This document shows, in pieces, positions 5,303-51,950 of a stretch of DNA of 64,000 nt. A program made the position numbers and the translations under genes. This DNA comes from Vulcanimicrobiota bacterium (GTDB taxonomy: Bacteria; Vulcanimicrobiota; Vulcanimicrobiia; Vulcanimicrobiales; Vulcanimicrobiaceae): assembly GCA_003151115.1 (NCBI GenBank), contig PLWS01000002.1, positions 310,001-374,000 on the forward strand, written 5' to 3'. Every line of letters starts with the position of its first letter. Within the stretch, counting starts at the first letter, position 1. Below the pieces are notes generated by a model. It saw nothing but the letters and a program-made list of their open reading frames with translations. It searched no databases and was not told the origin of the DNA.

Positions 5303-6954
5303 CACTTTCTAGAACGTTTTCCGGCCGCCGGCGGATTCACGCGGTGCCAAAATTGCAGGCCCATCGGGAGCGCGGCCGGCGCCAGCGGGTCGAGATCGTA
5401 TCCGGCCAGGTTTGACGGCACGACTGCGCCCAGGCGGATCGAGTAAAGGTAGATCACGGGGAGATCCACGGCGGCCAATTCCTGATAGCGGTCGAGTTCG
5501 CGCCGGGCGACCGCCATCGAGGGGGCCGAGCGCGCCGCTTCGATTGCGCGATCGACCTGCGGATTGGCGTAGAAGCCGATGTTGTAACCGCCGGCTGCGC
5601 GGGTTTGCTGGGAGTCATACGATCGATAGTCGTCGGGGTAGGCGGGCAGAATGATACCGCGCAGCGCTACTTGGAAACGGCTGTTGTGCAGATCTTCAAA
5701 AAACGTCTGCAGCTCCTCATTCTCCAGCGTGCAGTCCATACCGACTGCGCGCAAATTGGCTTGTATCAGCTCCGCGATGTTGCTCGCCACCGCGTCGGTT
5801 GCGCCGCCTGTTTTGAGCGTAAAACGCAGCTCGTGTCCGTCTTTTACGCGAATATTGCCCTGAAGTTTCCAGCCGGCTGCATCCAGTATCGCTCGCGCGC
5901 GCGCGGGATCGTACCGGTAGGTTCGCACGCGCGAATCGTAGTGCGGCGAAAAGCTTGGAAGCGGTCCGTTGAGAATATCCGCCTGGCCGCTCATGATTCC
6001 GGCTTTGATAAAGTCGCGGTCGATTGCGTACATCATCGCCTGCTTCACGCGCGGATCATGCGCCCATGCAATAGACGCATCGTGGTAATTCGGCAGCAAT
6101 AAGAATGTGACGTTCCAAGGCCAGGTGATGAATTTATGATCACCGCGCAAGCGATTGTGAATGCGCCAGAGGTTGGGAGCGATATCGGTCACATCGACTT
6201 CGCCGGCATCGACCGCGGCATAGAGCGAGTCCTGTTGAGGATAGACGCGGAAGGCCACCTCATCGAGTTTAGTTTTCGGTCCCCAGTAGCGCGGGTTGCG
6301 GCCGAGGATGGTATACGAATCGCGAACGCTGCGAACGATCCGCCACGGGCCGCTGATGACGGGATTTTGGGCGAAGTCCGCATCCGCGTTGACGAATTTC
6401 GCTTCGTCTTCAGAACCGGGCGGATAACGGTGCAAAATATGCTCGGGAAGCGGCAGCGTCTCGCCTAGGGCGTTCTCCAAGAATGGCGGCGACGGAGACG
6501 AAAGCCGGATCTCGACGGTGTAACGATCGATGGCCCGGACCGAAGTCATGAGTTTGAAATCTGAAGCGCTACTTTCCAAAACGTTTGGGTTATTGCCGAG
6601 CAGCAGCGAGAAGACGACGTCTTTCGACGTGAGCGGCGCGCCGTCAGACCATCGCGCGTTGCGGCGCAGGTGAAGCAGATAACGTTTTCCGCCGTCGGTG
6701 ATATCGATGCGATACGCCAAACTGGTTTGCGGACGCGGAAGCAAGTCGGGACCGATCGCCAGCAGCGGAGTGTAAATGAGTTCGTTGACCATGCGCGCCG
6801 CCGATCCGACGGCCGTCAGCGGATTGAACGAATCCGGCCCCGCGATCCACGCCGTCACGATCATGTTGGGCTGACGCGTCTCGGCAGATCGCGCTCCGCA
6901 CCCCGCCGCCGCTAAGACGAGCGAAGCCACTATTGACATGGTGAGCGCCTTCAC
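5302..6954 (-). CDS. Peptide/nickel ABC transporter substrate-binding lipoprotein
   Basis: The 550-aa family-5 (DppA/OppA) solute-binding protein has an N-terminal lipoprotein signal ([11 protein letters not shown], lipid-attachment Cys 19). The fold's typical phrases follow, including DGKRYL-type strands, [16 protein letters not shown] and [12 protein letters not shown]. It would be anchored outside the inner membrane and capture oligopeptides or another small ligand. It overlaps the permease gene before it by 4 bases and couples to msrA after it. No ATPase gene accompanies the cluster, so the transporter must borrow one. Confidence 0.92.
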
Positions 6955-51655: not shown

Positions 51656-51664
51656 ATAAGAAGA

Positions 51665-51682
51665 GCCGCCTGATTAGGCGGC
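51665..51682 (+). terminator. Hairpin after the 106-aa gene
   Basis: A 7-bp perfect stem GCCGCCT / AGGCGGC with loop GATT begins 10 bases past the stop. It lacks a T-run on the plus strand, so termination is possible but weak. A second stem AATCGC/GCGATT (51697-51720) is followed by TTTA. Confidence 0.45.
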
Positions 51683-51765
51683 CCGTCGCGTAGCGCAATC
51701 GCCGTGTCGCCGTAGCGATTTTAGCACGCGAGCGGCCTGGGTGGAAGACCCAACTGTGTTGGGCC

Positions 51766-51837
51766 TGGAGCCGACGGGATTCGAACCCGCACTTCCGAGT
51801 TGGCGACACGGCGCGCTACCAATTACGCTAAGGCCCC
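51766..51837 (-). tRNA. Atypical tRNA: Ala-type acceptor stem, anticodon arm reads GCC in register
   Basis: On the minus strand a 72-nt cloverleaf is seen: acceptor GGGGCCT/CGGCTCC with a G3·T70 wobble (the tRNA-Ala identity pair) and a T7-C66 mismatch. The D stem is GCGT/GCGC and the T arm is GCGGG TTCGAAT CCCGT. The discriminator is A and no CCA is encoded. The anticodon stem CCGTG/CTCGG has a T-T mismatch, and the loop TCGCCAA puts C where U33 is universal, with GCC (Gly) at 34-36. It may be a decayed or deviant tRNA. Amino acid identity is not settled. Confidence 0.6.
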
Positions 51838-51950
51838 GACCCAATCCAGGACAGTAGCGCCCGCTTATTGCGAGGAGATTTCCGCGCCGTTGCCGTTCCG
51901 TGTGCCGCCCCGCGAGGCTCGGAAGGCATCGTGGTATAAGGAGAGTCTCG

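Follow-up and report, generated by a model that had tools for sequence, protein, structure and literature searches.

Does a tRNA that joins the acceptor of one amino acid to the anticodon of another, and whose anticodon arm recurs in inverse orientation close by, represent a decaying gene copy or one half of a working RNA pair? This question is raised by nucleotides 51766-51837 (minus strand) of the window, the whole 64,000-nt stretch of DNA analyzed here (genome G000). The initial annotation had described a tRNA with the Gly anticodon GCC, and both programs agreed: ARAGORN called a tRNA-Gly(GCC) at 51837-51766, one of its two tRNAs in the window, and Rfam matched the tRNA family (RF00005) with 54.7 bits against a gathering score of 29. 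Direct reading confirmed C33, GCC at positions 34-36, and a U30.U40 mismatch (T-T in the gene) in the anticodon stem, together with an Ala-type acceptor (G1-C72, G2-C71, G3.U70, and A73), and the proposed combination of Ala acceptor determinants with a Gly anticodon was supported. The acceptor and T-stem have the lengths of a 7/5 cloverleaf. When the sequences were read by eye, a T7.C66 mismatch was seen in the window tRNA and a G53.G61 mismatch in its counterpart in G002, a species of the same genus. A loop shifted by one position (T33, anticodon CGC) was checked by hand and discarded, as it leaves the stem unpaired. A canonical tRNA-Gly(GCC) was rejected on the basis of C33 instead of U33, the U30.U40 pair in the stem, and the normal tRNA-Gly(gcc) elsewhere in the genome; the tRNA-Ala class shares the acceptor features G3.U70 and A73, but the anticodon is GCC, not NGC. 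A T-box riboswitch was also rejected, with RF00005 as the sole Rfam family matched in the window and the transcript converging on a gene of 77 amino acids (aa). AlaRS recognizes its substrates by G3.U70 and A73. Under these known rules, charging with Ala would be expected, and charging followed by insertion of Ala at Gly codons is possible; decoding should be weakened by C33 and U30.U40.

All 43 RF00005 matches in the genome were read with ARAGORN. It had been asked whether tRNA-Ala or tRNA-Gly(GCC) is otherwise missing, and neither is: besides the tRNA at 51766-51837, the genome carries Gly GCC, TCC, and CCC and Ala GGC, TGC, and CGC. The tRNA is therefore surplus, and these full sets rule out a canonical decoding role. 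The ordinary Ala (GGC, TGC, and CGC) and Gly(GCC) tRNA genes are the same in G000, G002, and G003 (a third species of the genus) among those compared, the comparison covering the better-scoring tRNAs (21 of G002 and 20 of G003). The remaining best-hit pairs between G000 and G002 or G003 showed 0-17 differences, some of them being paralogs or tRNAs without a G000 counterpart. As a separate observation, there was no tRNA-Asp among the 43 matches of G000, with one each in G002 and G003, perhaps reflecting an assembly gap. In addition, for the complement of nucleotides 101-174 of locus L040 (G000:C8:16455-16801), ARAGORN called a tRNA whose anticodon loop has 8 bases (gacg, undecided between Val and Arg); it may be a tRNA of the frameshift type, or the loop may be set wrongly.

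Both G002 and G003 carry counterparts of the tRNA and of its surroundings. Identity across the three species is 89-92% for the tRNA and 85-94% for the stretch antisense to it, whereas the adjacent upstream spacer is 65-74% identical and the four-fold sites of the flanking gene differ by 0.43-0.56. C33, GCC, U30.U40, and G3.U70 were kept in 3/3 species, and the tRNA stem pair 27-43 was compensated (C27-G43 to U-A in G002). These comparisons show purifying selection on both the tRNA and the antisense stretch. A tRNA pseudogene evolving at the neutral rate was thus rejected for these three species, and the earlier idea of a decayed copy did not hold for them; the tRNA in G005 and in both copies of G110 is broken.

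Table 1. Features at the tRNA locus, in window coordinates
Feature	Position	Strand	Basis
Inserted cassette, approximate extent (right edge uncertain)	51656..51905	-	empty syntenic sites in G001, G004, and G006
tRNA-fold RNA	51766..51837	-	ARAGORN; Rfam, 54.7 bits; orthologs in G002 and G003
D-arm stretch TAGCGTAAT, tRNA positions 8-16, complementary to 51691-51699	51822..51830	-	read directly
Anticodon-arm 12-mer CGCCGTGTCGCC, tRNA positions 25-36	51802..51813	-	
Hairpin GGCCCAAC/GTTGGGTC directly 3' of the tRNA, trailer or weak terminator	51747..51765	-	RNAfold; 86-93% identity in three species
Imperfect palindrome CTCGCGTGC..GCTACGCGAG around the promoter and antisense 5' end	51682..51733	-	RNAalifold; pair counts
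TGCTAAAAT, extended -10-like element, inferred promoter	51718..51726	-	TGCTARRAT, 6 nt, GG
GGCGACACGGCG, complement of the tRNA anticodon arm (plus strand, CGCCGTGTCGCC)	51700..51711	-	
Putative antisense RNA of about 55 nt (nt 1-12, inverted 12-mer; nt 13-21, anti-D-arm)	51657..51711	-	covariance model matches
Intrinsic terminator of the minus-strand transcript(s)	51663..51684	-	

The anticodon-arm 12-mer had been reported in inverse orientation about 90 bases away, and the coordinates were right, with a spacing of 90 nt between the two sites (Table 1). One further exact match lies elsewhere in the genome (G000:C6:154608), so the 12-mer is not unique as such. The complementarity reaches into the D-arm, where TAGCGTAAT faces ATTGCGCTA with one G-U pair, and the inverted copy, rather than being a decayed duplicate, makes up the apical loop in a hairpin that is longer, imperfect, and followed by a terminator. 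The putative RNA of about 55 nt lies on the same strand as the tRNA, with an antisense match to the anticodon arm and D-arm over the 27 nt at its 5' end. In dinucleotide shuffles, performed per locus with the 45-nt 5' part of the tRNA and the 60-nt hairpin stretch, a perfect complement of the length of the 12-mer arose by chance in 21/5000 cases at the window locus. The arm complement was reached in 59/5000 shuffles for G003, in 23/5000 for the copy on contig C43 of G110, a genome of another genus in the same family, and in 481/5000 for G002, in which a G-U pair restricts the longest perfect complement to 9 nt. The complementarity between the tRNA and the hairpin exceeds chance, because the other genus has preserved the register of the pairing while its letters differ.

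In this C43 copy, the tRNA-like 5' half has CCGTACCACC replacing CCGTGTCGCC, and the hairpin has GGTGGTACGG replacing GGCGACACGG. Across the four sequences, the 10-pair helix between the arm and the antisense stretch was paired in 40/40 cells, and all three pairs that differ between lineages were compensated; the D-arm helix (helix 1) was paired in 38/40 cells (95%). When the partners were slid by 1-3 columns, pairing in the 20-pair structure formed by both helices fell from 97.5% to 22-44%. The complementarity has thus been upheld by compensatory change. Both partners are present in just four sequences; as three of these are orthologs, the covariation essentially amounts to a single comparison between two lineages, and the column-shuffle control, in which 18/500 shuffles reached the observed covariation score, is weak. 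In the tRNA stem, pair 31-39 changed from G-C to A-U together with the antisense base in the C43 copy compared with the others, indicating that one position covaries with two partners.

The computed duplex energies (kcal/mol) separated the two lineages, with cognate pairs lowest or near lowest. Each short RNA with its own tRNA gave -38.6 (G000), -35.3 (G002), and -38.7 (G003), compared with -26 to -28 for the same RNAs with the arm from G110; the short RNA of the C43 copy gave -34.0 with its own arm and -23 to -29 with the arms of G000, G002, and G003. Against the 43 tRNAs of its own genome, the best computed partner of the window RNA was the tRNA at 51766-51837 (-38.6), followed by a tRNA at -30.2.

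These data bear on the possibility that an accessory or ageing tRNA simply lies beside a hairpin, the inverted identity having arisen by template switching (gene conversion) and the pairing having no function. Template switching can homogenize nearby inverted repeats, the tRNA is lost or broken in three of the six copies described below, and the mismatches T7.C66 (window copy) and G53.G61 (G002) would suit an ageing molecule. However, both the tRNA and the antisense stretch are under selection, positions 31 and 39 changed together, the latter lying beyond the repeat, and the same architecture recurs at three loci; we therefore regard this explanation as improbable. Gene conversion itself, as suggested by the initial annotation, is possible, but as the sole origin it leaves unexplained the pairing with new letters in another genus and the change at position 39.

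The short RNA would be produced from a promoter inside the element. The motif TGCTARRAT-N6-GG was found on the minus strand in 6/6 copies, and TGATATAAT, an extended -10 of the TGCTARRAT kind, lies 18-19 nt before tRNA-Ile and tRNA-Gln in the same genome (2/43 tRNAs of G000). Neither a -35 match nor a sigma-70 consensus match was found upstream of the putative antisense RNA, and the motif preceded 0/8 window genes in a crude count with unreliable gene calls. From the motif, we infer an internal promoter at TGCTAAAAT and two separate transcripts. A single read-through transcript with two folds, whose 3' part would refold onto the 5' half of the tRNA and thereby switch the tRNA off or time its maturation, appears unlikely. 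In its favor, the computed energy of pairing across the whole 181-187 nt was better by 3.4 to 6.4 kcal/mol than that of separate folds in 3/3 species, and the GG is not preceded by a strong promoter consensus. The pairs of the inner hairpin stem also covary, and this covariation favors a read-through hairpin because it spans bases that a short RNA starting at GG would leave out. By contrast, TGCTARRAT, the antisense part, and the terminator have survived the loss of most or all of the tRNA in G005 and on contig C114 of G110, and the -10-like motif is conserved beyond what the pairing needs, both of which speak against a single transcript.

The distribution of the element was surveyed with a covariance model of the hairpin and terminator in 117 genomes of the class, and the model was then remade with six copies and run on 149 genomes of the phylum. 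Six strong copies were found, in G000, G002, G003, and G005 and two in G110. In the phylum-wide run, they had E values of 5.8e-15 or better, the second model containing them by construction, and the next match was at 1.0e-5; both runs used stricter filters, with which weak matches are lost. Because the model was built on the hairpin and terminator part, tRNA-only copies could be missed, but searches with the tRNA part yielded no loci beyond the known copies, which argues against many tRNA-only copies. A pattern search of genome contigs returned four stretches (the two G110 copies, G005, and G002), and the pattern had 0 matches in viral contigs. A looser pattern of the tRNA arm, applied to the 117 genomes, matched exactly in G000, G002, and G003 only and gave one real match with one mismatch, in the C43 copy of G110; its other matches were about as common as those of a reversed-pattern control. 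Locus L006 and most weak pattern matches were attributed to chance, those examined lying mostly within reading frames, and the five weak covariance matches inspected (L095-L098 and L100) were terminators or nothing. A phage or plasmid origin was rejected: nine phage and five plasmid records showed generic tRNA similarity only, none of them over most of the query, and at the one plasmid match examined, in Variovorax (H10), only an IS3 transposase was seen nearby.

The six copies occupy three unrelated insertion sites, and at 3/3 the terminator end lies closely behind the stop codon of an opposite-strand gene. In the window, the cassette lies between the stop codon of the 77-aa gene, which has no Pfam match, and a PaaA/PaaC-family gene, on the strand opposite to both and downstream of an aldehyde dehydrogenase. 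The 77-aa and PaaA-like genes abut in G001 and G004 and are separated by a short cassette-free spacer in G006. The C114 copy of G110 adjoins an S4/FtsJ-domain (TlyA-like) gene, and the cassette is missing there in G106, G108, and G105; the reading frame ending on its other side is presumably xseB. The C43 copy and an unplaced gene of 320 aa are flanked by a fumarase-like gene on one side and a gene of 167 aa on the other (gene names at this site being in part our assumption), and G109 lacks both the copy and the 320-aa gene. The comparison with empty sites thus demonstrates insertion at three sites.

Several other features of the G110 loci were recorded. The 320-aa protein (L121:4903-5865) has no Pfam match, and its site in G109 is without it; its VEVKS stretch suggests a nuclease. 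On either side of the C43 cassette lies one unit of a 17-bp direct repeat, GAGCGGATGACGGCCCA (L121, about 5910-5927 and 6165-6181). A clean target-site duplication was rejected, as the cassette is separated from the repeat by the native stop codon of the neighboring gene, and direct repeats of at least 8 nt were not found around the window or C114 copies. Over 197 bases, the ends of contigs C114 (L120:1-197) and C4 match completely; the overlap ends at the cassette terminator and may reflect variation in the population or a branch in the assembly. The start of the TlyA-like gene, ATGGCGACACGGC (L120:356-375), repeats 11 bases, GGCGACACGGC, of the window antisense RNA, possibly by chance.

The tRNA is intact in G000, G002, and G003, whereas all or part of it is gone in the other three copies (the whole tRNA in G005, the 3' part in C43, and the 5' part in C114). 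The promoter-like motif, the antisense stretch, and the terminator were kept in all three. In G005, the ortholog without the tRNA, the antisense GACACGG has become GACACAG, which would break one arm pair. Loss of the tRNA with retention of the antisense stretch would fit an antitoxin, but also a useful small RNA (sRNA) with a dispensable partner. In the latter sense, the short RNA could be a trans-acting regulator of other genes that is titrated by the tRNA-fold RNA, as its persistence without the tRNA in G005 and C114 would allow. In Escherichia coli, sponges of sRNAs derived from tRNA spacers exist, and they offer a precedent for pairing between an RNA derived from a tRNA and a small RNA; there, however, the transcribed spacer pairs, whereas the cassette uses the anticodon arm and D-arm of the tRNA body. 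A sponge would have no need of the intact acceptor, T-arm, and G3.U70 that three species have kept, and the antisense sequence varies between copies, unlike a seed with fixed targets, which makes this role quite improbable.

These results are best read as a horizontally spread cassette that encodes a tRNA-fold RNA together with an antisense partner. We estimate a probability of about 0.5 that an inserted cassette encodes a tRNA-fold RNA and, from its own promoter, an antisense RNA of about 55 nt that targets the anticodon arm and D-arm and blocks the tRNA. The small cassette would give two RNAs from one strand. The first would have a tRNA fold with an Ala-type acceptor and a Gly anticodon; the second, of about 55 nt, would start at the internal promoter and end at the terminator, with its 5' end antisense to the anticodon arm and D-arm. 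The short RNA would most likely base-pair with the tRNA or its precursor and so block its folding or use. Pairing and blocking in the cell are what we infer from the sequence comparisons. Whether the pair is also an RNA-only addiction module is doubtful; in that case, the toxin would be the Ala-charged tRNA, reading Gly codons or otherwise poisoning translation, and the antitoxin the short antisense RNA. Such a module would spread between operons by settling after stop codons, and its decayed copies would lose the tRNA first and keep the antidote.

The cassette resembles type I toxin-antitoxin systems in having two complementary RNAs at one locus, in its scattered insertion sites, and in decayed copies that lose the would-be toxin and keep the would-be antitoxin. 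As in type I systems, the antisense RNA is complementary to its putative target, and compensatory changes have upheld this complementarity; here the antisense is encoded in tandem, downstream of that target and on the same strand rather than opposite it. The RNA that would be controlled is a tRNA fold and not the mRNA of a peptide, and single-base indels in the tRNA part between copies argue against a conserved peptide ORF there. In CreTA, the RNA toxin CreT acts by sequestering a tRNA, and guides of CRISPR effectors repress it (PMC8501985). CreT likewise acts as an RNA on tRNA supply, with no toxin protein (PMC8501985), but in the cassette the tRNA fold itself would be the candidate effector. 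Allo-tRNAs and other G3:U70 tRNAs with a non-Ala anticodon combine the Ala identity pair with the anticodon of another amino acid (PMC7609411), as does the cassette tRNA, which differs from the 8/4 and 9/3 allo-tRNAs in its 7/5 structure and in its antisense partner. Among the papers listed in literature searches, none showed a bacterial antisense RNA dedicated to a tRNA; a search specific to Eremiobacterota was swamped by unrelated papers, so an earlier report from that phylum is possible.

If the main reading is correct, tRNAs would join the targets of antisense control, this one having an antisense RNA dedicated to it. If the tRNA also mis-decodes, the pair would constitute a protein-free toxin-antitoxin pair and a regulated source of Ala-for-Gly mistranslation. 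The locus would also mark a small RNA cassette able to move from one operon to another in Candidatus Eremiobacterota, a phylum with little molecular work.
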